A stretch of DNA of 64,000 nt from Azospirillum lipoferum 4B. Lineage in GTDB: Bacteria; Pseudomonadota; Alphaproteobacteria; Azospirillales; Azospirillaceae. A program made the translations under genes and the position numbers. The notes beneath the pieces were generated by a model. The model was not told the origin of the DNA. It ran no database searches and worked only from the letters and a program-made list of their open reading frames with translations. The stretch spans positions 1,872,501 through 1,936,500 of the forward strand of contig NC_016622.1 in the NCBI RefSeq assembly GCF_000283655.1. Direction: 5' to 3'. Every line of letters starts with the position of its first letter. The stretch's first letter is position 1. This document shows positions 8,468 to 30,371 of this stretch, in pieces.

Positions 8468-11400
8468 TCAGCGGGCATGGAAGCAGGTCGCCCCCATCTC
8501 ACGCGTCCCGGTCTCGCGCGTCAGGTCAAGCAGCATCCCGACCACCGGCATATGGATGAAGCATCCGCGCACCGGGGATCCCGTCGCCTCCTCCACCATG
8601 CGGCGATAGAGCGACAGTTGCGGTGCGTGTGCCAGCGCGCGGGCGGCCCATTGGTCGAAAGCCCCCGGAAAGGCCTTGTGGTCGATGATCACCACCCCGT
8701 CGGCGGCATCCACCAGCAGGTCGATCCGCCCGCCGATCCGCTGGAGACCCAGGCGCCCATGCACGGGCACCTCCGTCCGCCAGCCCGCCCCCGGCCAAAG
8801 CCGTGACAGCGCGCGCCACAGGCGGTCACCGGCCTCCACCAGAGGAGCGGCGGCCGTCGGCTCGATCCCCCAGCGCTCCAGCAGCCGCGCGGCACAGGCC
8901 AGCCGATCCTCCGGCGCGGCATCCGGACGGTCGACCGCCAGGAAGGAGTGGATGGCCTCGCCAAGGCGCGTCACGTCGACGCCTCCGGCCAGCGGCAGGC
9001 GGTCCCCCAGGGCGATCGCCGCCGGAGCGCCGGCCGCGGCGACAACCGGAGCCGGGATGCCGAAATGGCTGGGAGCGAGGCGGAGCGGCGGATGATCGGG
9101 GACGGCGGCCGGCGCGGGCGGCAGCGAAAAGACGGCATGAACCGCAGCGGGCTGCGGCGCAGCACCGTCCTCCTCCGGGGCGGCGATGGTGATGGCGGTG
9201 GCCGGATGGGGCCGTCCGGCGGCATGGACGGTCACGGCGCCCTGTCCGGCCGGAAGTGCCAGCACCGGCAGCCCCCGTGCGTCGACAAGGGCGTCGAGCC
9301 AGTCCGTCTCCAGCCCGCCGGCCTTCGCAGGCCGTGCCGCCAGGATCAGCCGGTCTCGCGCGCGCGTCATGCCGACATACATCAGGCGCACGGCTTCGGC
9401 ATGGGCACGGCGGCGGGCGACCGCCATTTCCGGTGCGGCGTCCGTGGCATCGGCGAGCGGGATCCGCGCGCGCTGCTTGTCATACGGCCAGGGCCAGAAC
9501 CGCAGCCACCGACCGTCCAGCGGACACCAGGGGTCGACCGCCGCCCCATCCTCTGCCGCCGGCCCCTCCACCGTGAGGCCGAAGGCCGACGGTTCCGGCC
9601 CGCCCTGGAGGTCGAGCAGGACGACCATCGGCCATTCCAGCCCCTTCGACTGGTGATAGGTCATCACCTGCACGGCGTTGCGGTCGCCGCTGGGCGGCTG
9701 TTCGCCGCCCTTTTCGGCATCGGACAGAAAGCCGATCAGACCGCCGGCGGTCGCGGCGGCGCGGCGCGCCCGGCAATCGTCCTCGTAGGCCCTGGCAAGC
9801 CCGCGCAGCGCGTCGAGATTGCCAAGCCGTTCAGCGCCGCCGCCCCAGCGCAGGACCGCGTCGGTCACCGACCCGGCGGCGATCGCCACCTCCAGCGCCT
9901 CCACCGGTGTCAGGTGCAGCAGCCGGTCTCGGGCGGCGTCCAGGGCGCGCAGGACCGGCGAACCCTCCCGCGCGCGCCGGGCGGCGTCCGGCGCCAGCCA
10001 GGTCTCCAGCCAATCCGGCTGCCCCGCTGCGGCATCTTCGGCCGTATCCGGCATTGTCGCCAGATGGGCCAGCTCGACCATCGCCAGGGTGTCGCCGGGA
10101 TCGACCAGATAGCGCAGGGCGGCAAGCGCCAGACCGGCCTCCGGCGTCGCGGTCAACCCGGAGCGTCCGATGGCGACCTTCAGCCCGGCGGCGGCGAAGG
10201 TGGCGGCCACCGCCGCGCAACGCTCGTTGGACCGGCACAGCACGGCGACGTCCGATCCGCGGAGCGCGCCATCCACACCCTCCGCAGCCAGCCGGTTGGC
10301 GACGCCACGGGCGAGGGCGGCCAGCGCCTTGTCCCAGTTCTTGCCCTCCAGCGTCCATATCTCCAGCGGCGACGGTTCGCCCGGCCGGTCGCTGCGGTCG
10401 CACTCGCTGACGATGGCCTGGTCCTGTGGAATGCCGGTGGGCGGAAAGGCGGCGCCGAACAGGTCGTTGTGGAAGGCCACCAGACCGGGACGGGAGCGGT
10501 AGCTGCGCGGCAGCCGTTCCAGCCACCCGCCGGTCGCCGGCGGCACCCGGGCGACGACGGCGCGGATCAGGTCGGGGTCGGTGCCGCGGAAGCCGTAGAT
10601 CGCCTGCTTGGCGTCACCGACCCAGACGGAGCGGCGGACGATCCCCGCCAGTTCCAGGAACAGGGCGAGCTGGATCGGGCTGGTGTCCTGGAATTCGTCC
10701 ACCAGCGCCAGTTCGAAGCGCTCCGCCAGCAGGCTGCGCACGTCGGAACGGCGCAGCAGGGCCAGGGCTTCCTGTTCCTGGTCGACGAAATCGACCAGAC
10801 CCTGGATCCGCTTGAACTCCGCATAATCGGCCATGGCTTCGGCGGCGCAACTGAACACGCCGTCCACCAGGGCGCGCAGGTCGGCGTGCAGGCGGGGATG
10901 GCGGTCATGCGCCTCGGCGGCGGTGACGACGGCCTCAGCCACCCCCTTCCAGCGCGCCCCGGCGTCGAGCTTGGCAAGCCGCACCCAGTCGGCCCAGGCG
11001 AGCGGCCGGCCGTTGGCCAGCGCCGCCGCGGCCTCCTTCAGCAGGGCGAACGCATCCTGGGTCTTTTTAACCGTGACCTCGCCGCCGCCTTCGATGGCCG
11101 ACACGGCGTCCCGCACCGCCCGCCCCAGCGCGGCGTCGAGAGCGGCACCATCAGCAGCCGGTGGCGGCAGCAGCGTCAGCAGCCCGTCGAGCGACCGCGC
11201 GGCCGACGCCGCCAGATCCGCCGGGGCGATGGCGTTCTGCCGGGCAAGCGCGCTGACCCTGCGGACAAGGTCGCGCCAGTCCTCCACCCGCAGGCGCCAC
11301 GCCGCCGGTTCGATGGCGGAACCGTGGCGGCGGATCACGGTGTCGGCGGCGGCGGCGAACAGGGCGGCCATCCGGTCCTCGCCGATCACGTCGGCCACCG

Positions 11401-11728
11401 GGGATCGCCCCGCCTCCAGCGCGAAGGCCGCCGCGATGCAGCCGAAGACGGCGTTGACCGTGCCGATGGCGCCGGTCAGGACGTCCCGCGCGGCATCGCC
11501 ATGCCCCTCCGCGATCAGGCGCTGGCGCACCCGTTCCAGCAGTTCCGCCGCCGCTTTGCGAGTGAAGGTGGTGGCCAGGATGCGCCCCGGCTCCGTCCCC
11601 GCCGCCACCGCGTCGCGGAAGGCGGTGGCGAGGCGATAGGTCTTGCCGGTGCCGGCGCTGGCCGTCACCACGTCGATGGGGGACAGGGATGGAAAGGAGG
11701 TGGCGGCAATCGGGGAATGGGTGCTCAA
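8468..11728 (-). CDS. addA: AddA/RecB-like helicase-nuclease
   Basis: This protein of about 1,086 residues is a UvrD/RecB-type superfamily 1 helicase with a C-terminal nuclease. Walker A is TASAGTGKTYRLATAF (near residue 20) and motif II is LVDEFQDTSPIQLALF. Motif III is WVGDAKQAIYGFRGTDPDLI, motif V TYHQSKGLEWPMVVL, and motif VI LMYVGMTRARDRLIL. The C-terminus carries a PD-(D/E)XK site (GRIDLLVDAADGVVIIDHKA, then QLSLYRRMVEEATG). The start is taken as the TTG that overlaps the addB stop (TTGA), implying translational coupling; a longer upstream frame is antisense noise. With its partner it should unwind and resect DNA ends, acting in repair or foreign-DNA degradation. It sits beside the CRISPR operon, so a role in spacer-precursor production is conceivable but unproven. 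Confidence 0.85.
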   Translation of the reverse strand: MSTHSPIAATSFPSLSPIDVVTASAGTGKTYRLATAFRDAVAAGTEPGRILATTFTRKAAAELLERVRQRLIAEGHGDAARDVLTGAIGTVNAVFGCIAAAFALEAGRSPVADVIGEDRMAALFAAAADTVIRRHGSAIEPAAWRLRVEDWRDLVRRVSALARQNAIAPADLAASAARSLDGLLTLLPPPAADGAALDAALGRAVRDAVSAIEGGGEVTVKKTQDAFALLKEAAAALANGRPLAWADWVRLAKLDAGARWKGVAEAVVTAAEAHDRHPRLHADLRALVDGVFSCAAEAMADYAEFKRIQGLVDFVDQEQEALALLRRSDVRSLLAERFELALVDEFQDTSPIQLALFLELAGIVRRSVWVGDAKQAIYGFRGTDPDLIRAVVARVPPATGGWLERLPRSYRSRPGLVAFHNDLFGAAFPPTGIPQDQAIVSECDRSDRPGEPSPLEIWTLEGKNWDKALAALARGVANRLAAEGVDGALRGSDVAVLCRSNERCAAVAATFAAAGLKVAIGRSGLTATPEAGLALAALRYLVDPGDTLAMVELAHLATMPDTAEDAAAGQPDWLETWLAPDAARRAREGSPVLRALDAARDRLLHLTPVEALEVAIAAGSVTDAVLRWGGGAERLGNLDALRGLARAYEDDCRARRAAATAGGLIGFLSDAEKGGEQPPSGDRNAVQVMTYHQSKGLEWPMVVLLDLQGGPEPSAFGLTVEGPAAEDGAAVDPWCPLDGRWLRFWPWPYDKQRARIPLADATDAAPEMAVARRRAHAEAVRLMYVGMTRARDRLILAARPAKAGGLETDWLDALVDARGLPVLALPAGQGAVTVHAAGRPHPATAITIAAPEEDGAAPQPAAVHAVFSLPPAPAAVPDHPPLRLAPSHFGIPAPVVAAAGAPAAIALGDRLPLAGGVDVTRLGEAIHSFLAVDRPDAAPEDRLACAARLLERWGIEPTAAAPLVEAGDRLWRALSRLWPGAGWRTEVPVHGRLGLQRIGGRIDLLVDAADGVVIIDHKAFPGAFDQWAARALAHAPQLSLYRRMVEEATGSPVRGCFIHMPVVGMLLDLTRETGTREMGATCFHAR

Positions 11729-14460
11729 GGCTGGATGCTCCCGACGCCGCACAGGCGTCCGTAATCGCAGATGCGGCAGGGAGGGGTAAGGACGATGGCC
11801 GGCGGCCCGGCGCCGTCGCAGCCGGTATCGGCGATGCCCGCCGCCACGATCTCCCCGCTTCGCAGGCGGTCGAGCTGGCGGGTCCGGCTGTCCCAGGCGC
11901 TGCGCCAGACCTCCGGCAGGTCGCTGCCGGGAATGTGGGCATGGGCCGGAAAGGGTGCCGGTTCGGTGAACAGCAGGCGCTGCTGGGCCAGCATGAAATA
12001 GCCGGCAGGGACGGAGGTCGTCACGCCCCCGCCCACCAGCCGGCCATAGACGGCAAGCTGGATGGCGCGGCCCTCGGCGATCTCCTGCCGGCGGTGCCTG
12101 TCGGTCCTGCTCCATTTCAGGTCGAGGATGACCGGGCCGCCCGTTTCGTCCTCCAGAAGCATGTCCACCGTGCCGTCGACAACGATGTCCCCGGCGATGC
12201 CGCCGCCCATGTCGCCCGCCAGGGTTTCCTGAAACTCCACCTCGCAGCCGCGCACGGTCAGCCCGGCGCCGCCGATCAGGCCGGCCAGCATGCGCGCCGC
12301 GTCTGCTACCGCGGCGCGGGCGCGTTCCAGCTCCAGCCCCTGGCCCAGCCGCAGCAGCGGTGCCGCCAGAACCGGAAGCAGACGGTCGAACAGGGCGGCC
12401 GCCCGCCGCGCCGCCTCCTCCGCCGACCAGGACGGGCGTTCGGTGAACAGCTCCGCCAGGACGGCGTGGGTCAGCGTGCCAACCAGTTGCGATCCGTCGG
12501 GAATCCGGCGCAGGGCGCCCGGCCGCACCCCCGCGGCATATTGCAGCGTCCAGGCGAAGGGGCAGCCGAGCAGGCGGTTCAGGCTGGTCGCAGATTCCCG
12601 GTCCCGCATCGGCACGGCGTCGGCCGGCACCCGCCACAGCCGGCGCGGTTCGGGCGGACGGCCGCCGTCGAGCGCCGCACGCTGCACCACCCGCCCGGCC
12701 AGCGGCGTGCGGTCGGCCAGCAGCAGGGCCGATGCCTGCACCGCGCAGCCCCGGCCGTGCGTCAGGCGGTCCTGCGTCAGGTCGTGCAGAACCGGCTCGA
12801 TCTCGTGCCAAAGCGGGTGGGCCGCCGCCGGCTCCCCGGCGATGGCGCGCGGTTTCACCAGGATCAGCCGTTCGGCGGCGTTCAGGACCGGCAGGCGCCA
12901 TGCCCATGCCTCGCGCCGCAGAGCCTGCGTTGCCGCTTCCGGCAGGCAGCCGGCGGCGGCCAGCGCCGCCCGTTCCGCCCCGCTCCACGGTACGGCGGCC
13001 ATGCCGGCGCTGCCGTCGAGGAAGCCCCACCAGACCACGGCGCGCGCCGGCCCCCAGATTTGCCCCGGTTCGTCCACCACCGTCCAGGGCGCTGCCTCCG
13101 CCCCGCCCGCCGGCACCGCCGCCCCGTCGGCGATCACCGAATCCAGCATGCGGTCGATCTGCGGCTTTGGAATGCGGGCCAGCCCGCTGGCGGCCACCAC
13201 CTCGGCCATCGCGCCAGCCTGAGCGGCGACCACGGCCAGCATCTCGTCACCCTGCAGGGCGCGCCCGGCCGCCCAGTCGGCGACCCGGCGGCACAGGGCG
13301 GCGGCCACCTGCGCCGGGATGCCGTCGGCCTCGGCGATGCGCGGCATCTCAAGCCAGCCGCGCCACAGCCGCTCCTCCTCGGCAAGGCGGCGGGCGATGT
13401 CCCGCTCGGCAAGGCCGCGCTCCTCAAGCCGGGTGCGGCGGCGGCCGAGGGCGTCGCGCCATGCCTCCTGCCAGACCGGACCGCCGATGCCGGGGGCCTT
13501 CTGCAAGGCAGCCGCAAAGAACTCGGCCACGCCCATGGGAATCGGCGATTGCGGCAGGGTCAGCAGTTCCATCAAGCGGTGGACGTCCACCGGTTCCCAT
13601 GCCGTGGCGAAGGCCAGCGGCAGCACCTGGACGGCGGCCCGCCAGCGCGACCGCCCCGCCCCGCCGACGCGCGGCAGGCCCAACCGGTGGCAGGCCTCGT
13701 CCAGCAGCATGGTGCGCTGGCCGCGGATGATCGCGATGGCATGGTTGTCCCCCGGCGCGGCTGCGAGCCAGCCGGCCACCGCTTCCGCCGCCAGCCATTC
13801 GTCGTCGGCCTCCAGCAGGGTCAGGGAGCCATCGCCCCGCCATGCGGCCCCTTCGGTAAAGCCGCCCAGCCGCCGCCCCAGCGCCGCAAGGTCGCCATTC
13901 CCCGCCGGTACCGGCAGCCGGCAGGGGCACACCGCCGTCCCGCCGGCCGCCAGCCGCCGCAGCAGGCGGCGCCACGGCTCCGGCAGAAGCTCTTCCGGGG
14001 TGGCGAGGCGCAGTTCCGTCAGGCAGGTCGGCCGCGGCGGCTCCAGGGCGGCGGTGACTGCGCGCAGGCGGTCGCCGGGTCCAGGCGCCAGCGCTCCGGG
14101 CGCGCGTTCGACCTCCGCCAGCGTGTCGAGCCGCCCCCCGCCGCCCGGCACGCTGCCGTCCCAGCCCGCCTCGACCAGCGAATCGCGCCAGCCCAGCAGC
14201 ATGCGGGCGACCGACCATCCATCGGCGGCCAGCGACCGGCTGTAGAAGTGCTGCCCGTCATCGACCGCGCGCAGCCGGGCCAGATATTGCGCGATGCGCA
14301 GGGCGGGCGAAACCTCCGGCCCGCCAAGCGCCAGGATGGTTTCAAGAATGCGGATCAGCCCGGCTGGCCCGACGATGTCGGTGTCCAGGCTGGCGGCCGT
14401 GCCGTCAAGGGATTCCGGCCAGCTCGGCCCGTCCAGATGCCACCCGAACAGTATCCGCAT
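11725..14460 (-). CDS. addB: AddB-like PD-(D/E)XK nuclease subunit
   Basis: This 911-residue protein resembles the AddB family of the Gram-negative AddAB recombination nuclease. The N-terminal two thirds is a divergent inactivated-helicase-like region with many Trp and Leu residues. The C-terminal nuclease has GCPFAWTLQYAAG with a cluster Cys, GDIVVDGTVDMLLEDETGGP and VILDLKWSR (the D..DLK core), QLAVYGRL, and finally PPCRICDYGRLCG. The Cys of GCPF plus the three C-terminal Cys match the four-Cys iron-sulfur cluster of AddB nucleases. Its start is 187 bases from the guide-RNA target site described below. A chromosome would normally have its own addAB, so this may be a plasmid paralogue devoted to defence. 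Confidence 0.8.
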   Translation of the reverse strand: MRILFGWHLDGPSWPESLDGTAASLDTDIVGPAGLIRILETILALGGPEVSPALRIAQYLARLRAVDDGQHFYSRSLAADGWSVARMLLGWRDSLVEAGWDGSVPGGGGRLDTLAEVERAPGALAPGPGDRLRAVTAALEPPRPTCLTELRLATPEELLPEPWRRLLRRLAAGGTAVCPCRLPVPAGNGDLAALGRRLGGFTEGAAWRGDGSLTLLEADDEWLAAEAVAGWLAAAPGDNHAIAIIRGQRTMLLDEACHRLGLPRVGGAGRSRWRAAVQVLPLAFATAWEPVDVHRLMELLTLPQSPIPMGVAEFFAAALQKAPGIGGPVWQEAWRDALGRRRTRLEERGLAERDIARRLAEEERLWRGWLEMPRIAEADGIPAQVAAALCRRVADWAAGRALQGDEMLAVVAAQAGAMAEVVAASGLARIPKPQIDRMLDSVIADGAAVPAGGAEAAPWTVVDEPGQIWGPARAVVWWGFLDGSAGMAAVPWSGAERAALAAAGCLPEAATQALRREAWAWRLPVLNAAERLILVKPRAIAGEPAAAHPLWHEIEPVLHDLTQDRLTHGRGCAVQASALLLADRTPLAGRVVQRAALDGGRPPEPRRLWRVPADAVPMRDRESATSLNRLLGCPFAWTLQYAAGVRPGALRRIPDGSQLVGTLTHAVLAELFTERPSWSAEEAARRAAALFDRLLPVLAAPLLRLGQGLELERARAAVADAARMLAGLIGGAGLTVRGCEVEFQETLAGDMGGGIAGDIVVDGTVDMLLEDETGGPVILDLKWSRTDRHRRQEIAEGRAIQLAVYGRLVGGGVTTSVPAGYFMLAQQRLLFTEPAPFPAHAHIPGSDLPEVWRSAWDSRTRQLDRLRSGEIVAAGIADTGCDGAGPPAIVLTPPCRICDYGRLCGVGSIQP

Positions 14461-14506: not shown

Positions 14507-14653
14507 ATGAATAAAGAGTTTAACGGGCGCTCGCAGAGAAGATCCAAGCACATCTGCATTCGCAGACAAATCATTCATATGAATGTTATTGCGCCATCCA
14601 AACGACCTTCTGTTGTGCCAAAGAACGCCAGCGGCGCAGATTTTCGGTTCTAG
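14507..14653 (+). CDS. Small basic ORF with tandem AGA codons
   Basis: A 48-codon frame starts MNKEFNGRSQRRSKHICIRR and ends GADFRF, with GGTGGGAG six bases before the ATG. It is Arg/Lys-rich and contains a tandem AGA-AGA pair plus a third AGA, codons that look very rare in this GC-rich sequence. Its stop codon overlaps the PAM of the guide-RNA target. No family is recognised. It may be a real micropeptide (toxin-like tRNA sequestration by tandem rare Arg codons is known for CreT), or simply an open frame in addB's 5' region. Confidence 0.3.
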   Translation: MNKEFNGRSQRRSKHICIRRQIIHMNVIAPSKRPSVVPKNASGADFRF

Positions 14654-14682
14654 CGTTTGATCGCTGGTGTCAAAGCTTGACG
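14647..14682. promoter_or_regulatory. Divergent promoter region with crRNA-like target site
   Basis: Two -35-like hexamers lie back to back: TTGACA on the minus strand (14668-14673, towards addB) and TTGACG on the plus strand (14677-14682, towards the hairpin and guide RNA). They form the inverted repeat GTCAAAGCTTGAC. The -10 elements are weak on both sides. Positions 14651-14673 match the pseudo-spacer of the crRNA-like unit at 18 of the first 21 bases. The upstream TTC (14648-14650) fits the 5'-TTN PAM known for type I-G. Binding of a guided Cascade here would cover both promoters. Confidence 0.6.
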
Positions 14683-14708
14683 AAACCCGATTAGTGGATC
14701 AAAAAAGG

Positions 14709-14769
14709 AAAAGCCGCTGATGAGCCCTCCTCAGGTTCCAGGCCTAAAGGGTTCATAACAGCGGCTTTT
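14709..14769 (+). other. Stable hairpin enclosing a 12-codon mini-ORF (creT-like candidate)
   Basis: An 11-bp perfect stem (AAAAGCCGCTG / CAGCGGCTTTT) encloses exactly one mini-ORF: ATG at 14720 begins right after the 5' arm and TAA ends at 14758 right before the 3' arm. The ORF would encode MSPPQVPGLKGS, with tandem CCT codons and a CTA. Its first and last bases also pair (ATGAGCCC with GGGTTCAT), extending the helix. AAAAAAGGAA upstream could serve as a ribosome binding site. The U-run makes it a possible terminator in either direction. Its place, between the guided target promoter and the guide RNA, is where creT lies in known CreTA modules. Function is inferred. Confidence 0.45.
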
Positions 14770-14790
14770 CACATACGCCGGAGTACTAGG

Positions 14791-14961
14791 ATGAGAAACC
14801 ACCTAAAGAAGATGATCACCCCCAAGCCTCCGTCCGGCCATCAGGCCGAGCGTCAGATGTATATCACGTTCTCCATAACGACGCAAAGGCGACGTTTGGA
14901 AGTGATGCTGGCAGCCAGCCTCTTTGAAGCTAGCGTTCGATTGATGGTGTCGATCGAGTAA
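14791..14961 (+). CDS. Small hypothetical ORF overlapping the guide RNA
   Basis: A 56-codon frame starts MRNHLKKMITPKPPSGHQAE and ends LFEASVRLMVSIE. A GGAG sits seven bases before the ATG. The product is basic in its first half and hydrophobic-amphipathic in its second. The 3' third overlaps the degenerate repeat and pseudo-spacer of the crRNA-like unit, so either the frame is accidental or the two functions share sequence. It could be the toxin partner in a CreTA-like pair. I do not recognise a family. Confidence 0.35.
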   Translation: MRNHLKKMITPKPPSGHQAERQMYITFSITTQRRRLEVMLAASLFEASVRLMVSIE

Positions 14962-15021
14962 CGACCCACTTCCCATGCGCTTCCGTCCGGTCTCCGGGCG
15001 GAAGCGTATCGGGCCTCGTTG
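14894..15021 (+). ncRNA. Solitary crRNA-like unit (CreA/CreR-type candidate)
   Basis: Two degenerate copies of the array repeat flank one pseudo-spacer. The first (ending 14930) reads AGCCTCTTTGAAGC where the repeat has GGCCTCATTGAAGC, so the 5' handle is preserved. It is preceded by its own small hairpin (GCTGG-CAG-CCAGC), as in the true repeat. The second has CCGGGCGGAA, then CG, CGGGCCTC and TTG in the same order as the repeat, with a few changes, inside a strong hairpin from 14978 to 15006. The pseudo-spacer starting TAGCGTTCGATTGATGGTGT at 14931 matches the promoter site at 14651. Csb2 could process such an RNA. Known CreTA and CreR guides have this form and lie beside cas genes. Confidence 0.65.
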
Positions 15022-15024
15022 CCA

Positions 15025-15064
15025 CAACCCTCGCGACGGTTAACGCCGCGGGGGTTGCGTCTTT
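15025..15064 (+). terminator. Rho-independent-like terminator of the guide RNA
   Basis: An 11-bp stem (CAACCCTCGCG / CGCGGGGGTTG, one G-T pair) with an 11-nt loop is followed by CGTCTTT. It lies just after the second degenerate repeat and before the cas3 promoter, so it would end the crRNA-like transcript and separate it from the cas operon. Confidence 0.6.
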
Positions 15065-15067
15065 AAT

Positions 15068-15108
15068 CGAATATGGTCACAATATTCGCAACCCTTGCCT
15101 TTTATACT
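15068..15108 (+). promoter_or_regulatory. cas operon promoter with palindromic operator
   Basis: A 21-bp imperfect palindrome (CGAATAT-GGTCACA-ATATTCG) lies 15 bases upstream of a -10-like TATACT at 15103. The palindrome covers the -35 position. This would place a repressor or activator site across the promoter that drives cas3. No matching regulator can be named from the window. Confidence 0.5.
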
Positions 15109-15166: not shown

Positions 15167-17669
15167 GTGACCTCCTTCGATTCCTTCTTCGCCCGTGCGA
15201 TGGGCGATTCCTGCCAGTCTTATGAATACCAACGGCGCTTGGCACTGGAGCCTTGGCCGGAGGTGATGATCGCCCCGACCGGGGTGGGCAAGACGGCGGC
15301 GGTCGTGCTGGGATGGCTGTGGCGCCGCCAAAACGCGCCGGATGACACGCCCCTGCGGCTGGTGCTGTGCCTGCCGATGCGCTCGCTCGTCGAACAGACC
15401 CGTGATCGCGTCGAGGACTGGCTGAAGAAGCTGGGCGCCCGCACCGACCCGTCCCTGCCCCACCCCGAGCATGGTCTGGCCGTGCTGATGGGCGGCGGGG
15501 AGCGGGAGAAGCAGCCGCCCGCCTGGGTGCAGACTCCCGAACGGCCGGCCATCCTGATCGGCACCCAGGACATGCTGCTCAGCCGCGCCTTGATGCGCGG
15601 TTACGGCATCAGCCGCTTCCGCTGGCCGGTGGATTTCGCGCTTCTGCACAACGATGCGCAGTGGGTGTTCGACGAGGTGCAGGCGATGGGCGCCGGGCTG
15701 GCGACCTCGACCCAGTTGCAAGGCCTGCGGACGGCGATGGGAACGGCCCGTCCCAGCCGGTCGCTGTGGATGTCGGCGACGCTGGATCCGGCATGGCTGG
15801 CGACCGTGGATCACAAGGCTCCCGACCGGGTCCTGCGGGTGCCCCACGATGTGCCGGCGGACCAGGACAATCCCGATCTCCGCCGGCTGATCGACGCCCG
15901 CAAGCATCTCCGCCCTGCCGCGACACGGCCGGCGGGCGCCGGCGCCAAGGACAGGGACGCGTACACCACCGCCCTGGCCGGCGAGGTGCTGGAGGCGCAT
16001 CGGCACGGCACCACCACGCTGGTCATCCTGAACACGGTGGCGCGCGCCCAGGCGGTCTATGGGACGCTGAAAAAGCAAATGGGTGCTGCGGCCGGAGACA
16101 GGCTGCTGCTGATCCACGCCCGCTTCCGCCCGCGTGAACGGACGGAACAGCTGAAGCGCCTGACCGGCGAGGGGGCCGGGCGGGACCGCATCGTCGTCGC
16201 CACCCAGGCGGTCGAGGCCGGCATCGACGTCTCCTCCGCCCTGCTTGTCACCGAACTGGCGCCCTGGTCGTCGCTGGTGCAGCGGTTCGGGCGGGTCAAC
16301 CGCTATGGCGAATGCCAGAACGGCGCCGAAATCCGCTGGATCGACCTGTCCCTGTCGAAGGAGGAGGATCCCAAGGGCGAAATGGCCCTTCCCTATGCGG
16401 CGGAGGATCTGGCGGCGGCGCGCGACCGGCTCGCCGGCCTCGACGACAACGACGCCGCACCGGCCAAGCTGTCGCCCACGGATCGGCCGCCACCGGTCCG
16501 CCATGTGCTGCGGCGCAAGGATCTGCTGGACCTGTTCGACACCGATCCCGACCTGACCGGCTTCGACATCGACGTCAGCCCCTTCATCCGCGATGCCAAG
16601 GACACCGATTTCCAGGTGCTCTGGCGCGACATCCCCGACGAGGCCACCGCGCGGCGGCAACCCCTGCCCGACCGGGACGAGCTGTGCAGCGTGCCGATCC
16701 GCCGGGCCGAGGACCTGCTGAAGGGCCGTCAGGGCTGGCGCCTGAACCCGCAGGCGAAGGGGAGCGATTCCACCTGGATGCGCCTGGACGGAAAGCCCTG
16801 GCCGGGCCTTGTCGTCATGCTGGACGCGGCGCAGGGCGGCTATGACCCGGACATCGGCCTCGCGCCGGAAATGACCAAGGAGAAGGTCCCGGTCCTGGCA
16901 CCACCCGACGGGCCGGAGGACACGGCCACCGCCCCCCACATCGAAAGTCCCAACGACGACCGCGATTCGCGCCAGGATCACGCGGTCCTGCTGGCCGAGC
17001 ATCTCGGCAACGTCGCGGCGGCGGCGGAGAGGCTGTGTGCCGACCTGCATAGAACGGTCGCGATGCCCGCACCGGACCATGCCGCGGTGGTGACCGCCGC
17101 CCGCTGGCACGATGTCGGCAAGGCGCATGACGAGTTCCAGGCGCGCATGGTGGAACCCGCCCGCCCGCCGGGCACGCTGCTGGCGAAGGCGGAGAAGTAC
17201 GAGCGCGCGAAGGGGCGTCCCTATTTCCGGCACGAGCTGGCCTCGGCACTCGCCTATCTCGACCAGAATGGCGGCACCGCGAGCGCCGATCTGGTCGCCT
17301 ATCTGATCGCCGCCCACCACGGCAAGGTGCGGCTGTCGCTGCGCGCCCTTCCTCAGGAGAAGCCACCGGCCGACATATGCCGCTTCGCCCGTGGCATCCA
17401 CGAAGGCGACCCGCTGCCGGCGGTCGATCTCGGCGACGGCAGCCGGTCCGAAGCGCTGTCGCTGTCGCTGCGCCTGATGGAACTGGGCGCCGACGAGGAC
17501 GGCGATCCGAGCTGGGCAAGCCGCACCGCCCGGCTGCTGGCGGACCACCGGCCGTTCCGGCTCGCCTGGCTGGAAAGCCTGGTGCGCATCGCCGACTGGC
17601 GGGCTTCGGCGGCCGAACAGGAGAAGGCCCGGCAAGAGAAGGCCGGTAAAGCGGTGGTGGGACGGGAGG

Positions 17670-17689
<20 letters not shown>
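15167..17689 (+). CDS. cas3: Cas3 helicase-nuclease (type I-G)
   Basis: This 840-residue Cas3 unwinds and degrades target DNA after the effector complex finds a match. The superfamily 2 helicase is first: Walker A IAPTGVGKTAAV (residues ~35-46), a DEVQ box in QWVFDEVQAMGAGL, TQAVEAGIDVSSALL, and motif VI LVQRFGRVNRYGE. The HD nuclease is C-terminal: AAVVTAARWHDVGKAHDEFQ, a later RHELASALAYL and LIAAHHGKVRLSL. Helicase-then-HD order is characteristic of type I-G (formerly I-U) rather than most other type I Cas3. The GTG start has AAAGG eight bases upstream. It is the first gene of the operon and overlaps csx17 by about 20 bases. Confidence 0.93.
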
Positions 17690-20958
<3,269 letters not shown>

Positions 20959-20965
20959 GCCGCCG

Positions 20966-22696
20966 ATGCTGGCTCTCGTCTTCACCTTCCCCGCCGGGCG
21001 CTACCACGCCACGCCCTGGGGCCGCCATGTCAACGAGGCCGATGTGGCTTGGCCGCCGGAACCCTGGCGGATCCTGCGCGCGCTGGTCGCCACATGGTAC
21101 CGCAAGGCCGATCACGCCGCCTTCCCCGAGGAGGCGCTGGCGACGCTGATCGACCGGCTGGCGGAAGAACCGCCGGATTACGCACTGCCGGCCCAGGTGG
21201 TCCATGCCCACAGCCGGCATTACATGCCGCAAGCCAATCCCAAGGACACCAAGCTGGTGTTCGACGCCTTCGCCCGTTTTCCCGCCTCGGACCCCATCGT
21301 CGCGGAATGGCCGCGGCTGACGCTGGAAGGCGACGCGCTGGCCCTGCTGCGCCATCTGGCGGAACGGATCGGCTATCTCGGCCGGGCGGAAAGCTGGGCG
21401 GAATGCACGGTGTGGACCGAGACGGGGGCGTGGACCATCAATTGCCGGGAGACGTCGGCGGACCAGTCCTATGGGCTGACCGACGAGACGGAGGCCGTCC
21501 GCGTCATCGCCCCGCTGCCGCCCGCCGCCTATGCGCAGGAACGCGCCCGCCTGCTGGGGATGGCGCAGGACCGCGTTCTCGCCTCCTGGACCAAGCCCAA
21601 GCCGCCGACCGACAAGGCGATGGCGAAGCTGATCGCGCCGACCGCCGCGATCCTTCCCGACAGGCTCGTCGGCGCCCTGGCGCTCGACACCGGTGACTTC
21701 CAGAACCAGGGCTGGAACCGCCCGCCGGCCAGCCGGGACCTGCTGTACCGCTGCGTGCCCCTGTCGCCCTTGCCTCTATCGCCCCTGCCCCGCCGCAACA
21801 CCGGACGGCCCGCCCGAACCGACGGGGATCCCCCCAAAGTCGCCCGCTTCCTGCTGGCGGGACGGCCGCGCCCGCGCATCGAGGATGCGGTGAAGATCGG
21901 CGAGTTGATGCGGCTTGCCACGATGGCGCGCTTCGGCTGGGACAGCGATCCGGCGACCGGCAGGCGGCTCCCCCGCGCCCCGGCGGTGTTCGTGGGCAAG
22001 AACGCCGACGGCCGCCCGCTGGCCGACGATCCCGCCCATGCCCACGCCTTCTGGCTGCCGCAGGACGCGGACGGCGACGGGTTCATCGACCATGTCGTGG
22101 TCTATGCGGCCGACGGCTTCGATGCGCGGGAGAGAAGCGCCCTCGATCAGGTGACGCGGCTGTGGGTGCGCGAACAGGACCGGCCCCGCCGCTCCGCCAG
22201 GGGGACGGATGAAGAAACGGACGAGAGTCCGGACATCCGGCAGGAATGGCGGCTGGCGCTGGAAGGCTTCGGCATGCCGGAGGATTTCGAGGACGACGTT
22301 CCCTTCCTTGGCGAAAGCCGCCACTGGATCAGCGCCACTCCCTTCCTGGCATCCGGCCATCTGAAAGCCGGCGGACACGTTGCGGAAGCCCGGCGCCTGC
22401 TGGTCCGCCGCGGCATCGTCACGGCCGATCAGGTCGACCGGTTGAAAATCAAGGAAAGGAAGTCGATTCAAATCAAGAACCGCGTCCTTCTCCCCCTTCA
22501 CTTCCACCGCTTCCGCAGCGGCCGGGGCGAGGCGCAGCATGACGCGGCCGGCGCGTTCCTGCGTATCACCCTGCCGGAGCCGCATCGCGGTCCGCTGGCG
22601 CTGGGCTACGCCTGCCATTTCGGACTGGGGCTGTTCGTTCCCACAGAAGAAGAAAGCGACCAGGAAAAGACCGTCCTGCCAATACCCGAAGACTGA
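20966..22696 (+). CDS. csb2: Csb2, Cas5-Cas6 fusion of type I-G
   Basis: This 576-residue protein (GSU0054/Csb2) joins a Cas5-like domain, which caps the 5' handle, to a Cas6-like ribonuclease that cuts the repeat hairpin. The N-terminus MLALVFTFPAGRYHATPWGR and HVNEADVAWPPEPWRILRAL is diagnostic. The middle includes YMPQANPKDTKLVFDAFARF. The C-terminal half holds HWISATPFLASGHLKAGG, and it ends near LGYACHFGLGLFVPTEE, a glycine-rich RAMP-type stretch. It would also be the enzyme to process the crRNA-like unit upstream of cas3. The short gap to csb1 indicates one transcript. Confidence 0.9.
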   Translation: MLALVFTFPAGRYHATPWGRHVNEADVAWPPEPWRILRALVATWYRKADHAAFPEEALATLIDRLAEEPPDYALPAQVVHAHSRHYMPQANPKDTKLVFDAFARFPASDPIVAEWPRLTLEGDALALLRHLAERIGYLGRAESWAECTVWTETGAWTINCRETSADQSYGLTDETEAVRVIAPLPPAAYAQERARLLGMAQDRVLASWTKPKPPTDKAMAKLIAPTAAILPDRLVGALALDTGDFQNQGWNRPPASRDLLYRCVPLSPLPLSPLPRRNTGRPARTDGDPPKVARFLLAGRPRPRIEDAVKIGELMRLATMARFGWDSDPATGRRLPRAPAVFVGKNADGRPLADDPAHAHAFWLPQDADGDGFIDHVVVYAADGFDARERSALDQVTRLWVREQDRPRRSARGTDEETDESPDIRQEWRLALEGFGMPEDFEDDVPFLGESRHWISATPFLASGHLKAGGHVAEARRLLVRRGIVTADQVDRLKIKERKSIQIKNRVLLPLHFHRFRSGRGEAQHDAAGAFLRITLPEPHRGPLALGYACHFGLGLFVPTEEESDQEKTVLPIPED

Positions 22697-22723
22697 CCGT
22701 CCTTCAACCACGGAGCCGCGGCG

Positions 22724-24427
22724 ATGACCGACCAGCTGACCCTGCCCCTCCCAGCCCCGCCGGAGACGGACCCGGACCTGCTGGTGCCGGCGCGCATGGT
22801 GAACGAGTGGGTCTATTGCCCGCGGCTGGCCTATCTGGAGTGGGTGGAGGGCGCCTGGGCGGCCAACGCCGACACCGAGGAAGGCAAGCGCGCCCACGCC
22901 CGCGTCGACGCCGGCCGCGGCAAGCTGCCCCCGCCCGAGGAGGCCGACACCGCCCCGCCCTTCGAGGTGCGCTCCATCGAGCTGGCCTCCGACCGGCTCG
23001 GCCTGATCGCAAAGATGGACGTCATCGAGGGCGAGGACGGCGTGCTGACCCCCATCGACTTCAAAAAGGGCAAGCGCCCCCACGTCGAGGGCGGCGCCTA
23101 CGAGCCGGAGCGCGTGCAGCTCTGCGTTCAGGCCCTGGTGCTGGAGGATAACGGCTACCGCGTCGGCGAGGGCTTCCTGTGGTTCGCCGGCAGCCGCGAG
23201 CGCGTCCCCGTCAGCTTCGACGAGGAACTGCGCGCCCGCACCCGCGAGGCCGCCGCCGGCCTGCGCCTCGCCGCCGCGGCCCGGCGCGTGCCGCCTCCGC
23301 TGGATAACAGCCGCAAATGCGCGCGCTGTTCGCTGCTGCCCATCTGCCTGCCCGACGAGGTCAACCTGTTCCGCAGCGGCGGCGCACCGCGGACGCCTCC
23401 GCCGGCCGCCGACGCCGCCCTGCCCCTCTACGTCCAGCAGCCCGGCGCCCGCGTCGCCAAGAAGGGCGACCTGTTGATCATCGCCGTCGAGAACGAGCCC
23501 GACCGCGAGGTCCCCCTGGGCGAGGTGTCGGAACTGGTGCTGGCCGGCCCGGTGTCGCTGTCCACCCCGGCCCTGCATGCCCTGGTCAAGGAGGAGATCC
23601 CGATCGCCTGGATGAGCAGTGGTTTCTGGTTCATTGCCACCACCGGCGCGCGCGGTCCGCGCAGCGCCCATGTCCGCGAGGGCCAATACGCCGCCCGCAC
23701 CGACGCCTTCCGCCGCCTGCTGTTCGCCCGCGACCTGGTGCGCGCCAAGTTGCGCAACCAGCGCACCATCCTGCGCCGCAACTGGCGCGGCACCGAGGCC
23801 GAGCGCGACCACGCCGCGGAGACGCTGAAGCGCCTGGCCGACCGCACCGCCAAGGCCTCCGGCCTGCCCGAGCTGCTGGGCGTGGAGGGCGAAGGCGCGG
23901 CGGTGTATTTCCGTGCCCTGCCCGCGCTGTTCACCGACAAGGTGAAGGACCTGCCCGCCTTTTCCTTCGAGCGCCGCTCGCGCCGCCCGCCCGCCGACCC
24001 GGTCAATGCCTGCCTGTCGCTGTGCTATGCCCTGCTGACACGGACCTGCGCCACGGCGCTGGAAATCGCCGGGCTGGACCCGTGGGCCGGGCTCTACCAC
24101 GCCGACCGGCCGGGCCGGCCGTCGCTGGCGCTGGACTTCATGGAACCGCTGCGCCCGATTCTGGCGGACTCCACGGTGCTGACGGCGCTGAACAACGGCG
24201 AGCTGGCGCCGGGCGACTTCATTACCGCCGGGCCGGGCTGCAACCTGACCGCTGGCGGTCGCCGCACGCTGATCCGGGCCTTCGAGCGCCGGCTGGACCA
24301 GGAAGCCTCGCACCCGACCTTCGGCTATCAGATCTCCATGCGCCGGATGCTGCACGTCCAGGCCCGCCTGTTCGCCCGGCACCTGCTGGGCGAGATCGAC
24401 AGCTACCCGCATTACTGCCCGCGCTGA
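22724..24427 (+). CDS. cas4-cas1: Cas4-Cas1 fusion, spacer acquisition
   Basis: This 567-residue fusion selects and trims prespacers (Cas4 part) and integrates them (Cas1 part). Cas4 occupies residues ~1-215: VNEWVYCPRLAYLEWVEGAW with the first cluster Cys, nuclease residues in IAKMDVIEGEDG and TPIDFKKGKRP, and the C-terminal CARCSLLPICLP with three more Cys. Cas1 follows from about residue 225 (LYVQQPGARVAKKGDLLIIA, SELVLAGPVSLSTPALHALV, the Glu of GVEGEGAAVYFRAL, and YHADRPGRPSLALDFMEPLR). Such fusions are typical of type I-G; in Geobacter sulfurreducens the fused protein drives 5'-TTN PAM choice. It is spaced 27 bases from csb2. Confidence 0.93.
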   Translation: MTDQLTLPLPAPPETDPDLLVPARMVNEWVYCPRLAYLEWVEGAWAANADTEEGKRAHARVDAGRGKLPPPEEADTAPPFEVRSIELASDRLGLIAKMDVIEGEDGVLTPIDFKKGKRPHVEGGAYEPERVQLCVQALVLEDNGYRVGEGFLWFAGSRERVPVSFDEELRARTREAAAGLRLAAAARRVPPPLDNSRKCARCSLLPICLPDEVNLFRSGGAPRTPPPAADAALPLYVQQPGARVAKKGDLLIIAVENEPDREVPLGEVSELVLAGPVSLSTPALHALVKEEIPIAWMSSGFWFIATTGARGPRSAHVREGQYAARTDAFRRLLFARDLVRAKLRNQRTILRRNWRGTEAERDHAAETLKRLADRTAKASGLPELLGVEGEGAAVYFRALPALFTDKVKDLPAFSFERRSRRPPADPVNACLSLCYALLTRTCATALEIAGLDPWAGLYHADRPGRPSLALDFMEPLRPILADSTVLTALNNGELAPGDFITAGPGCNLTAGGRRTLIRAFERRLDQEASHPTFGYQISMRRMLHVQARLFARHLLGEIDSYPHYCPR

Positions 24428-24984: not shown

Positions 24985-27900
24985 GCCTTCCCGGGCGGAA
25001 ACGCCCGGGCCTCATTGAAGCTCGCTGTCCAAGCAGATGCAGACCGAGGTCGGAGAGCCTTCCCGGGCGGAAACGCCCGGGCCTCATTGAAGCGAGACGG
25101 TGGACCTGAACAGCCTCAATATCGTGGGTGAGCCTTCCCGGGCGGAAACGCCCGGGCCTCATTGAAGCTTACCCGGCGCGGGGCCGGTGCCCCGGCCCCG
25201 CGCCGCCGCCTTCCCGGGCGGAAACGCCCGGGCCTCATTGAAGCGCAGTTGGCGTCACGATCGTCCGGATCCGTGGGCAACGCACGCCTTCCCGGGCGGA
25301 AACGCCCGGGCCTCATTGAAGCGAGCGCAGCGCGATGACGCTCAATCAGGTGAGCCAACGCCTTCCCGGGCGGAAACGCCCGGGCCTCATTGAAGCACCT
25401 GGGCCGGGTCCAGCATGCCGTATTTCGCCGTCAGGCCTTCCCGGGCGGAAACGCCCGGGCCTCATTGAAGCTTGTTGAGGGCGCTGAATGCCTCGATGTC
25501 GCGGGTGGCGCGCCTTCCCGGGCGGAAACGCCCGGGCCTCATTGAAGCGTCACGCGAATGACGCCCGTCCAGTCGGTGGAGCAGGCCTTCCCGGGCGGAA
25601 ACGCCCGGGCCTCATTGAAGCGTCGACGCGCAATGCCTGTTTCTCGCCCGCCAACCGTTGCCTTCCCGGGCGGAAACGCCCGGGCCTCATTGAAGCTGTT
25701 AGTCGCATTAGCGACCCCGGATACCCTCAATGCGCCTTCCCGGGCGGAAACGCCCGGGCCTCATTGAAGCCCTCAACGACAGACAGTCCATCCCCGGCGG
25801 CGGCATTGCCTTCCCGGGCGGAAACGCCCGGGCCTCATTGAAGCAGGAAACTCGTCAACGAGGGCCGCGTCACGTCAGAGCCTTCCCGGGCGGAAACGCC
25901 CGGGCCTCATTGAAGCGTGACAAGCCAACTTTGGAATATTGGCCGGCCATTGCCTTCCCGGGCGGAAACGCCCGGGCCTCATTGAAGCTACTTGGTGAGG
26001 AGGCGCTCAGTCGCTGCACTCACGGCCTTCCCGGGCGGAAACGCCCGGGCCTCATTGAAGCAGTGATCGGTCTGGCGCAAGATGATGAAGTCATCGGTGC
26101 CTTCCCGGGCGGAAACGCCCGGGCCTCATTGAAGCGCCTCCGGCGGCGGGCCGACCATCTCGCCAACGCGGCGGCCTTCCCGGGCGGAAACGCCCGGGCC
26201 TCATTGAAGCACGAATCCGGATCCGCGCTCTGTACGCCATGTGAAGGGCCTTCCCGGGCGGAAACGCCCGGGCCTCATTGAAGCCATGGAAATCGCCGGG
26301 TAGACCTCAGTCCACGATCCCGCCTTCCCGGGCGGAAACGCCCGGGCCTCATTGAAGCAATGCACTCCCGCAGATCGGCGATAGCCCCCCGCAGACGCCT
26401 TCCCGGGCGGAAACGCCCGGGCCTCATTGAAGCTTCCACCGTCCATGGACGGTTGGCGTCCGCCTCGCCCCGGCCTTCCCGGGCGGAAACGCCCGGGCCT
26501 CATTGAAGCCAAGCGGAGAGGAGTTTAGCCCTGTCGACGTCGGTTGCCAGCCTTCCCGGGCGGAAACGCCCGGGCCTCATTGAAGCAAGGATCGGTATCG
26601 CGCAGTTGCTGAGCGCCCAGTCGAGGCCTTCCCGGGCGGAAACGCCCGGGCCTCATTGAAGCATGGTGGCACCGGGGCGCAGAACATTGTCGGCGTAGAG
26701 CACGCCTTCCCGGGCGGAAACGCCCGGGCCTCATTGAAGCGTCACCGGCTCGATCAGGGCCGGCTCGTCCCCGTCCGCCTTCCCGGGCGGAAACGCCCGG
26801 GCCTCATTGAAGCATGTCTGACAGCCAGCACCGTTCGGCCGACGTCGCCAGCCTTCCCGGGCGGAAACGCCCGGGCCTCATTGAAGCCGGCACCGGCGCC
26901 GGTCAGCGCCGCACCATCGCCGCGCCTTCCCGGGCGGAAACGCCCGGGCCTCATTGAAGCGGATGCTGCCATGGCCTGCCGCTCCAGTGTGTGGGCGTGC
27001 CTTCCCGGGCGGAAACGCCCGGGCCTCATTGAAGCAAGGTCTCCACCATGCACAGCGGCATAGACCTCGCTGCGCCTTCCCGGGCGGAAACGCCCGGGCC
27101 TCATTGAAGCTCGCAACAACTGTCCGTGAGTGTCTGTATGGTGGTGCTGCGGCCTTCCCGGGCGGAAACGCCCGGGCCTCATTGAAGCCACACAAGGAAA
27201 CCAAAGACGCACTGTGGCGGCGGGGCCTTCCCGGGCGGAAACGCCCGGGCCTCATTGAAGCTCGCTTTCCGGAGTCTGTGCCATCTGCGGACGGGCAGGG
27301 CCTTCCCGGGCGGAAACGCCCGGGCCTCATTGAAGCAACTTGGCCGATCAATGCGCGCCTGGATGTCTGCGATGCCTTCCCGGGCGGAAACGCCCGGGCC
27401 TCATTGAAGCCTCCGTGGAGCCATTCACCGCCCGTCGCCGCGGCGTGCGCCTTCCCGGGCGGAAACGCCCGGGCCTCATTGAAGCCCTTGCTGGTGACGT
27501 GAGCACCTCCAGCATAGGGCAAGGCCTTCCCGGGCGGAAACGCCCGGGCCTCATTGAAGCGCACCTGGGCGAGACGGGCAACAACCTGCAACGCCTGGCC
27601 TTCCCGGGCGGAAACGCCCGGGCCTCATTGAAGCCAGCCGGGACATCGACCACGACACCGATAATATCTCCGCGCCTTCCCGGGCGGAAACGCCCGGGCC
27701 TCATTGAAGCAAGCGTTTGCGGCGCCCGTCTTCGTGCGTGACGATCGCCTTCCCGGGCGGAAACGCCCGGGCCTCATTGAAGCAGCCAGATCGGCGGGGG
27801 CGAAGCCCTGAGCCGCGCGGGCCTTCCCGGGCGGAAACGCCCGGGCCTCATTGAAGCGCGTCGACGATCAACTCGAACTGGCCGGGGTACGGGTGCCTTC

Positions 27901-30371
27901 CCGGGCGGAAACGCCCGGGCCTCATTGAAGCAATACCCTGGTAGCCAGCCCCGGTTAGGCGGCGTTCGCCTTCCCGGGCGGAAACGCCCGGGCCTCATTG
28001 AAGCCTCGGCTCCCGGTGGAGGTGGAGATGCGGCGACCATGGCCTTCCCGGGCGGAAACGCCCGGGCCTCATTGAAGCAAGGAAGCGGAGACCAGACGGG
28101 CCGACCAGATCGACCGCCTTCCCGGGCGGAAACGCCCGGGCCTCATTGAAGCTACACCTCGACCGGTGCGCCGAAGATCACGGGGACCAACGCGCCTTCC
28201 CGAGCGGAAACGCCCGGGCCTCATTGAAGCAAAGATAGCCGCGCAGATGATCTGTTGACGCAGGCGGCCTTCCCGGGCGGAAACGCCCGGGCCTCATTGA
28301 AGCGCCCACATGAACGCCCTGCCCGTTGCGGCCAAGGCCAGCCTTCCCGGGCGGAAACGCCCGGGCCTCATTGAAGCTCGCTCATGACGATGGACTGCGT
28401 GGCGTGGCAAACGGCCTTCCCGGGCGGAAACGCCCGGGCCTCATTGAAGCCACCTATGGGTGGAATGGTGGCGGTGAAATAACGCGGCCTTCCCGGGCGG
28501 AAACGCCCGGGCCTCATTGAAGCGTGGATCAGGGTGGCGGCTTCGTCGTTGCAGTAGGCGCCTTCCCGGGCGGAAACGCCCGGGCCTCATTGAAGCCTGA
28601 TACCGGCGGTGTAGACCTTGTCGTTCAGGCCCTTGCCTTCCCGGGCGGAAACGCCCGGGCCTCATTGAAGCGATCCCATCGGCACGACCGACGATGCGGG
28701 GAACTGGTGGCCTTCCCGGGCGGAAACGCCCGGGCCTCATTGAAGCCAGAACCCGGCCCAGCCACTTCACTTTTTCCAATAGGGCCTTCCCGGGCGGAAA
28801 CGCCCGGGCCTCATTGAAGCAAGTTCGAGCACAACGTTGACGGTCTGGTGCGTGGCGGCCTTCCCGGGCGGAAACGCCCGGGCCTCATTGAAGCACGCGC
28901 TGGCCCGGCGCCTGCGCGGCGATGAAGCCCTGGCCTTCCCGGGCGGAAACGCCCGGGCCTCATTGAAGCGGCCTGTCGATCGACGCCGAGGGCAAGGCCA
29001 AGACGGCCTTCCCGGGCGGAAACGCCCGGGCCTCATTGAAGCTGCCCAACGGTGGCACCCCGCTGTGTCGCCATCGCTGGCCTTCCCGGGCGGAAACGCC
29101 CGGGCCTCATTGAAGCCGCCCTTCCGGTAGACCTCCCGACCCTCATTCCCGTCGCCTTCCCGGGCGGAAACGCCCGGGCCTCATTGAAGCTGCTCCCAGA
29201 CGATCGAGGTCAGCGCGTGGCAGACGCCTTCCCGGGCGGAAACGCCCGGGCCTCATTGAAGCTCGATCTCCGCGGCCGACGTGGTGCCCTGCCAGAAGCG
29301 CCTTCCCGGGCGGAAACGCCCGGGCCTCATTGAAGCGATTTGGCCAAGGTCACCAGCGATCCCGAGGCCGCGGCCTTCCCGGGCGGAAACGCCCGGGCCT
29401 CATTGAAGCAAGCACCATCCGCGCCGGGGCCGGGTCGACCGCTTTGCCTTCCCGGGCGGAAACGCCCGGGCCTCATTGAAGCGTGCCGTGCTCTGGCAAC
29501 TCGACGCGGACCCGTCCGCCTTCCCGGGCGGAAACGCCCGGGCCTCATTGAAGCGTCAGCACGACGTCTGACATGACGATCACCTTGGAGGGCCTTCCCG
29601 GGCGGAAACGCCCGGGCCTCATTGAAGCACAAATCGCAGCGGCAATCTCTGACGTGTAGGACGAGCCTTCCCGGGCGGAAACGCCCGGGCCTCATTGAAG
29701 CCAGGTCGCCGGTCAGCTGCTCGTAGGTCACGCCCATGGCCTTCCCGGGCGGAAACGCCCGGGCCTCATTGAAGCAAGGCGAAGCTGGGCATCCCGTGGG
29801 TTGGGCTGTCGATGCCTTCCCGGGCGGAAACGCCCGGGCCTCATTGAAGCATCTTCCTGGGGCAGGGCGCCACCGGCTCCTTTGCCCGCCTTCCCGGGCG
29901 GAAACGCCCGGGCCTCATTGAAGCAACACGCTGCTGGGAGTTTCCACCGGCGGCCCGAGGTGCCTTCCCGGGCGGAAACGCCCGGGCCTCATTGAAGCAC
30001 GACCGCCAGCTGCATGGCCGCCTGGATCACCTCCGGCATTCCCGGGCGGAAACGCCCGGGCCTCATTGAAGCGCAGCTACCTCAGCGAGGCCCTGCGGAT
30101 GGCCTGGAATGGCCTTCCCGGGCGGAAACGCCCGGGCCTCATTGAAGCGCTATGTCGCCAAAGCAAGCGGTGGCAGGCTGTACGTCGCCTTCCCGGGCGG
30201 AAACGCCCGGGCCTCATTGAAGCTCGTGCGGGAAAGACGGGTCGGTGGCAGCAACGAAAGCCTTCCCGGGCGGAAACGCCCGGGCCTCATTGAAGCAGCT
30301 CCGCCAGGAAAATGGCGATGGCGGTCCAGTCCGGGCCTTCCCGGGCGGAAACGCCCGGGCCTCATTGAAGC
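24985..30371 (+). CRISPR. Type I-G CRISPR array, 73 repeats and 72 spacers
   Basis: I counted 73 copies of a 37-bp repeat that starts GCCTTCCCGGGCGGAAACGC and ends CCGGGCCTCATTGAAGC. The internal palindrome CCCGGGCG-GAAA-CGCCCGGG forms the hairpin, and ATTGAAGC would be the 5' handle. Units are 72-78 bases apart, so spacers are 35-41 bases. Only two variant repeats were seen: one G-to-A near 28203, and one C-to-A at the start of the repeat at 30036 (GCATTCCC). The far end is abrupt: 28 bases after the last repeat an IS256-family element begins. Transcription is rightwards, the same as the cas genes. Confidence 0.97.

Follow-up and report, generated by a model that had tools for sequence, protein, structure and literature searches.

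Organization of the locus

The window, that is, the entire 64-kb stretch of DNA analyzed here, carries type I-G cas genes followed by a CRISPR array. Table 1 presents an overview of these features together with the smaller elements upstream of cas3g. The 37-nt array repeat, GCCTTCCCGGGCGGAAACGCCCGGGCCTCATTGAAGC, occurs as 71 exact copies and two copies with one mismatch, and the spacers are 35-41 nt in length (36-38 nt in 54 of the 68 measured). A Mutator-family transposase gene is found at 30843-31766, directly past the distal end of the array. On the other side of the cas genes is a leftward gene at 11725-14460, which we take to be AddB-like. Searches of the intergenic region for known RNAs returned nothing credible, the one match being to a snoRNA at 17.8 bits against a gathering threshold of 48, and no tRNA was found there.

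Among type I effectors, that of type I-G was the last to be characterized. In the available text of the study, it is described as recognizing a TTN PAM, using a guide with an 8-nt 5' handle and flipping every sixth base; the handle arises by Csb2 cleavage 4 nt past the repeat stem (PMC9638904).

Table 1. Features of the window, with positions counted from its first letter
Feature	Position	Strand	Basis or remark
Target PAM, TTC	14648..14650	+	Sequence; TTC in L001 too
Guide target, 18/21 match	14651..14671	+	Match search; kept in L001 at 4456
Candidate promoter, CTTGAC (14676-14681), N17, TCAAAA (14699-14704)	14676..14704	+	CTTGAC conserved; -10 by eye
Long hairpin at or near predicted transcript start	14708..14770	+	z -5.38, 0/200 shuffles
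GGAG, candidate Shine-Dalgarno	14780..14783	+	Sequence; GAGG at equivalent L001 place
56-aa ORF, candidate toxin gene	14791..14961	+	3' end overlaps psiR1 and spacer
psiR1, 3' end of degenerate repeat, GCCTCTTTGAAGC	14918..14930	+	12/13 bases equal array repeat 3' end
8-nt handle in psiR1	14923..14930	+	Predicted guide 5' end at 14923 (TTTGAAGC)
Guide spacer up to psiR2 hairpin	14931..14971	+	Folding and match search
psiR2: rewired hairpin 14972-15013 and repeat-like stretch 14994-15021	14972..15021	+	Repeat alignment and folding
Terminator-like hairpin 3' of guide	15025..15057	+	z -3.74; partly reported by terminator scan
Candidate cas3 promoter, TTGCGT-N17-CACAAT	15055..15083	+	By eye; equal spacing in L001; not in consensus scan
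Type I-G operon: cas3g, csx17/cas8g, csb1/cas7g, csb2, cas4g-cas1g	15167..24427	+	NCBIfam, all above own cut-off
CRISPR array, 73 repeats	24985..30371	+	Repeat search

A guide unit and its target

About 240 nt upstream of cas3g lies a solitary guide unit consisting of psiR1, a spacer and psiR2. The original prediction described it as a pair of degenerate repeats, the first with a hairpin of its own. Both repeats hold up on alignment with the array repeat, psiR2 matching it in 23 of 28 aligned columns. The psiR1 hairpin does not: the arms GCTGG and CCAGC are present, but they fold no better than shuffled sequences (z 0.11) and are absent from L001, an Azospirillum-like genome described below. 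Outside the array, one other 13-mer in the 64-kb window resembles psiR1 at two or fewer mismatches (at 39989, with two). In psiR2, the native repeat stem is disrupted; what was its left arm now serves as the right arm of a new and stronger hairpin with upstream sequence (z -5.75, 0/200 shuffles). This hairpin starts 41 nt past the handle, the equivalent stretch in the array being a spacer plus five unpaired repeat bases. Since the two spacings are similar, the rewired hairpin would restore a mature guide of normal length. As in a true repeat, CCTC is located on its 3' side.

The spacer had been proposed to match a nearby site at 18 of 21 bases behind a TTC PAM, with a mismatch at position 12. 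The count and the PAM are correct; the mismatches, however, fall at positions 8, 12 and 14 rather than at 12 alone. Position 12 is a flipped base while 8 and 14 are not, and position 8 is part of the seed. Matching ends after position 21. Aside from the spacer itself, the target is the sole site in the window that matches at 15 or more of the 21 positions. Three controls, run on the intergenic region that holds the target and requiring a TTN PAM, rule out a chance match. The best of 70 array spacers (of 72) reached 14/21 and none of 20,000 shuffled spacers reached 18/21; among 20,000 random 21-mers drawn from the window, the 13 that reached 18 were all 21/21 matches, i.e. they had been taken from the region itself.

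Downstream of the target is CTTGAC, a typical alphaproteobacterial -35 sequence, set at exactly 25 nt from the start of the target in both the window and L001. A scan for the sigma-70 consensus reported no promoter at the target. The predicted transcript would begin with a stable hairpin, followed by a candidate Shine-Dalgarno sequence and a small ORF. On the minus strand (14708-14730), this hairpin is followed by CTTTTTTGAT, a better U-rich tail than on the plus strand, so it may also terminate leftward transcripts. A 12-codon ORF within the window hairpin was set aside, having by eye no counterpart in L001.

The 56-aa ORF is 48% identical to a 52-aa ORF of L001 (L001:4589-4747), with no gap over the first 42 codons. 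The coding signal is weak, as pS is 0.41 and pN 0.30 in frame compared to 0.40 and 0.32 in one other frame. Searches found no protein family or PDB sequence match (best Pfam E value 0.17, none at E <= 0.1), and among 82 genomes of the family and order and 385 from the class, relatives were found in the L001 genome only. Plasmid and phage searches gave 2 and 2 records, respectively, at E >= 1; the one plasmid region inspected was without annotation. The predicted peptides carry net charges of +5 and +8 in the two species, and a model built from a two-sequence input suggests a single helix over residues 18-55 (mean pLDDT 83.8). A tRNA-sequestering mini-ORF like that of H. hispanica was also considered. 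The window ORF starts with ATG AGA, AGA accounting for 1% of Arg codons across six window genes; the L001 ORF does not start in this way, and the candidate was rejected.

Conservation in close relatives

By Csb1, the closest relatives of the window locus are L001 and L002 (Azospirillum sp. TSO35-2). L001 is filed as Roseomonas genomospecies 6, and its Csb1 and Cas3 are 86% and 75% identical, respectively, to those of the window. The order of elements in L001 is that of the window: TTC and target, CTTGAC-N17-TCAAAA, hairpin, Shine-Dalgarno-like stretch, ORF, guide, psiR2, terminator hairpin and cas3. Identity is high on the guide side (handle 14/14, spacer stretch 44/56, psiR2 32/37, terminator 30/35) and lower on the target side (5' hairpin 34/65, PAM and target 14/24, just upstream 14/47). 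The 5' hairpin nonetheless keeps its pairing, with four of nine inner pairs changed on both sides in a hand-registered alignment.

The pairing of spacer and target can be compared with that of type I-B CreA, for which the available text reports that pairs 1-5 and 7-11 are needed while positions 6 and 12 are free (PMC8501985). L001 pairs at every one of the needed positions, and the window is mismatched at 8 and matched at 15-21. Over positions 1-16, the L001 spacer and target agree everywhere except at two positions, 6 and 12, both of which are flipped bases in type I-G. Position 13 has changed on both sides between the species and is the sole position at which spacer and target clearly covary. 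The sequence TTNTAGCGNTCGAT is found once in the 6.8-Mb L001 genome, at the guide target.

Turning to the other relatives, neither L002 nor L110 (Cas3 73% identical to that of the window) has a candidate handle in the 1200 nt that precede cas3. By BLAST, L110 lacks the module but retains the start of cas3 and, at 83% over 119 nt, the sequence on the left flank. Matches to psiR2-like DNA turned up in four genomes of the family; of the two inspected, neither had a repeat unit.

Recurrence among type I-G loci

The original prediction had also proposed a search of type I-G loci for degenerate repeat pairs upstream of cas3. A search there for handles followed by spacers with a partial target was positive in 8 of 74 loci. 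It looked for the handle of the repeat found at each locus, replaced by a generic handle where the array was not in the sequence, and covered 74 of 94 sequences (93 loci and the window), the remainder having no usable cas3 start or too little upstream DNA. There were 24 handle candidates, and for eight of them a partial target behind a TTN PAM reached p <= 0.001 relative to shuffled spacers. These belong to the window, L001, L011 (Spirochaetaceae), L023 (Burkholderiaceae), L027 (Hydrocarboniphaga), L028 (Bryobacterales), L038 (a gammaproteobacterium) and L056 (Hyphomonadaceae). L005 and L069 were weaker (p 0.0125 and 0.02), and the remaining 14 candidates had p > 0.1. When whole loci were searched, 12 of 273 candidates reached p <= 0.002; the counts for six permuted decoy handles were 1/307, 1/257, 0/237, 2/193, 0/287 and 0/517. 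Two of the 12, L063 and L109, have a TTG PAM and were left out of the ten-unit tables as likely chance. Enlarging the type I-G set over the phylum gave 6 of 398 genomes.

The PAM of the ten units is TTC in six and TTT in four. Mismatches occur at position 6 in seven units and at position 12 in eight; as these positions were not scored, the mismatches indicate a lack of constraint and do not constitute an independent test. At its 3' end, psiR1 reads TTGAAGC in every unit. When its final eight bases are compared with those of the repeat, eight of the ten units have a mismatch, in each case at the first base of the handle, which is T in six. Three of the eight were judged against a generic repeat, and candidates with more than one mismatch in these bases were excluded by the search. 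A psiR2 hairpin without a full handle can be recognized in the window, L001, L019, L028 and L038, and by eye in L011. In L023 it is weak, its score of 14 being at the level of L027, L056 and L102, where none was recognized. A separate observation concerns the paired positions 1-17 of the ten units, at which 7 of 18 mismatches are spacer C against target T, where base composition predicts 1.49 (binomial 0.0004, post hoc). One explanation may be that the displaced strand undergoes deamination.

Some of the units suggest other kinds of target. In L011, L023 and L027 (units at L011:2668-2757, L023:449-510 and L027:4384-4452), the target lies only 77-115 nt before cas3, and CreR-like autoregulation is therefore the likely reading. 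In L056 (4511-4927), a gene for a 58-aa DUF1508 protein (45.7 bits) is located downstream of the guide target and could be guide-repressed cargo. Right after the guide unit of L038 is an 80-aa ORF (L038:222-464) resembling the Csb1 N-terminus (25.3 bits, cut-off 25).

In L019, the guide unit (10324-10738) is situated between csb2 and cas4-1, and its target at 10324 is upstream of a tRNA-like gene at 10455-10557 (Rfam tRNA 47.9 bits, gathering 29). This gene has a long variable arm like that of tRNA-Ser, an anticodon loop, TTTGCAA, that corresponds to UGC (alanine), and an anticodon stem with one bulged base. ARAGORN makes no call on it, and the genome has separate tRNA-Ser genes with anticodons TGA, GGA, GCT and CGA. 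Seryl-tRNA synthetase recognizes the long arm and not the anticodon. Read by that enzyme, the product could mistranslate, which makes a guide-repressed mistranslating toxin a possible interpretation; the plain alternative is a degenerate pseudogene.

A candidate guide-repressed module

The guide anatomy, PAM, partial match, conservation and recurrence across type I-G can all be read from the sequences compared here. From these, we infer that the guide is transcribed and processed and that it represses the target promoter. In the mechanism envisaged, transcription of the guide gene at 14918-15021 would yield an RNA that Csb2 cuts and the type I-G effector takes up. The effector would then bind the TTC-flanked site at 14651, where the R-loop could reach the -35 box at 14676, thereby blocking the promoter of a short transcript with a stable 5' hairpin and a 56-aa cationic ORF. 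Matching that stops after position 21 is probably too short for Cas3 to be licensed to destroy the chromosome. In Haloarcula, according to the available text, a spacer of 24 bp brought about repression of a gene but not interference (PMC10989794). Should the effector be lost or inhibited, the promoter would be freed and the RNA or peptide product might arrest or kill the cell. Toxicity is suggested by analogy with the known modules, and both an RNA toxin and a peptide toxin are candidates for the product. Taken together, the locus is best explained as a CreTA/CrePA-like, CRISPR-repressed toxin-antitoxin-like module of a type I-G system, to which we assign a probability of roughly 0.6. The original prediction of a CreTA/CreR-like element is supported by the unit, PAM, target and 25-nt box offset kept in L001, by recurrence above decoys and by the fit to the type I-G PAM and handle. 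Of its two options, the CreTA-like one is the better fit to the window locus.

If what the guide represses is instead a small gene or RNA that is harmless or has a regulatory role, the module would hold cargo rather than a toxin. Consistent with this, the small ORF has no known relative beyond L001 and the L056 target precedes the DUF1508 protein gene. We regard it as unlikely, given that the guide-repressed units beside cas genes that have been tested are toxins or cas promoters, as far as the available texts go (PMC12737573, PMC8501985, PMC10097628). Alternatively, the target promoter may read through the guide into cas3, such that the guide senses the effector level and damps cas in a CreR-like manner with no toxin involved. 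The targets in L011, L023 and L027 have exactly this look. The window target, however, is 516 nt before cas3 with the ORF, guide and terminator-like hairpin in between; cas3 has its own candidate promoter, identified by eye and kept in L001; and the guide has no second site of at least 15/21 in the window. Autoregulation is quite unlikely here.

The module is missing from two of three close relatives and has a seed mismatch at position 8 in the window, as might be expected of a dead mini-array relic with no present function. Conservation in L001 makes such a relic very unlikely, since the two loci, whose Cas3 proteins are 75% identical, share the handle, psiR2 and target, the offset of the box and the pairing of the hairpin. 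Control of the AddB-like gene, which would link DNA repair to spacer supply, draws on a gene start 191 nt from the target and on a PDDEXK_1 domain in the product. In L001, only two short stretches of the 5' end of this gene remain (52 and 93 nt aligned; L001:4193-4329) while the guide, target and box are kept, and control of this gene is therefore the least credible reading, with hardly any weight.

For a CRISPR-repressed toxin-antitoxin-like module, loss of the effector would free the candidate toxin, and the CRISPR system could thereby become addictive or able to sense anti-CRISPRs. A wider view, which is speculative and on balance doubtful, is that type I-G systems of several phyla carry distinct guide-repressed suicide modules, marked by a changed first base of the handle and with freely swapped toxins. 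For the window, this toxin would be a novel peptide, small, helical, cationic and without relation to CreP; for L019, it would be a rogue tRNA that resembles tRNA-Ser but reads alanine codons. On the present reading, guide-repressed modules with a toxin or a regulatory role would also occur in type I-G, and the target geometry, in which a seed and flipped sixth bases reach a -35 box, is testable in reconstituted I-G systems. It also yields related loci in other phyla and a simple way to find more, along with a candidate toxin unlike those in the literature surveyed. If the modules are toxic, they would bear on the resistance of CRISPR systems to loss and on anti-CRISPR detection.

Comparison with known systems

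A literature search of partial coverage found no description of such a guide unit in type I-G. A 2023 survey by Shmakov et al. reportedly found that many type I systems have crRNA-like elements directed at promoters of cas genes or of cargo. Racr (RNA anti-CRISPR) is a solitary repeat unit on a mobile element, whereas the window has two degenerate repeats directly upstream of the cas operon, in the same place as in L001. Closer is CreR, described in the accessible part of its source as a crRNA-like guide beside cas genes that represses a promoter (PMC12737573). CreR targets a cas promoter; the window guide has its target 516 nt before cas3, where there is a separate small candidate unit. The same source, to the extent available, describes CrePA as having a guide-repressed protein toxin (PMC12737573), a likeness to the module proposed here; CreP differs in having a KilA-N domain, for which the window ORF, much shorter, gave no match.

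The closest likeness is to CreTA of the type I-B systems of Haloarcula hispanica and Halobacterium hubeiense and the type I-F system of Acinetobacter. The window module differs from these in its type I-G effector, its location upstream of cas3, its rewired psiR2 stem and its seed mismatch at position 8. Its ORF is longer, at 52-56 aa, and is preceded by a 5' hairpin, and its toxin is a candidate; the toxic RNA of the Acinetobacter I-F module consists of a Shine-Dalgarno sequence, a mini-ORF and a hairpin in the available description (PMC10097628). In CreTA, which is found beside type I or III cas loci, the target lies in the toxin promoter, the known repressed products are toxic RNAs, and repression depends on Cascade and not on Cas3. 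At the window target no promoter emerged from the consensus scan, yet the conserved CTTGAC box stands at its fixed offset. The position next to cas genes and the flanking degenerate repeats are those of CreTA. Within the accessible text of the two sources, the shared features are a psiR1/psiR2 pair in which psiR1 carries the handle and psiR2 the hairpin, as in published creA, where psiR1 keeps the handle and psiR2 the hairpin side (PMC8501985), together with a PAM-flanked partial match to a nearby promoter, a candidate one in the window, and adjoining cas genes (PMC8501985, PMC10097628).
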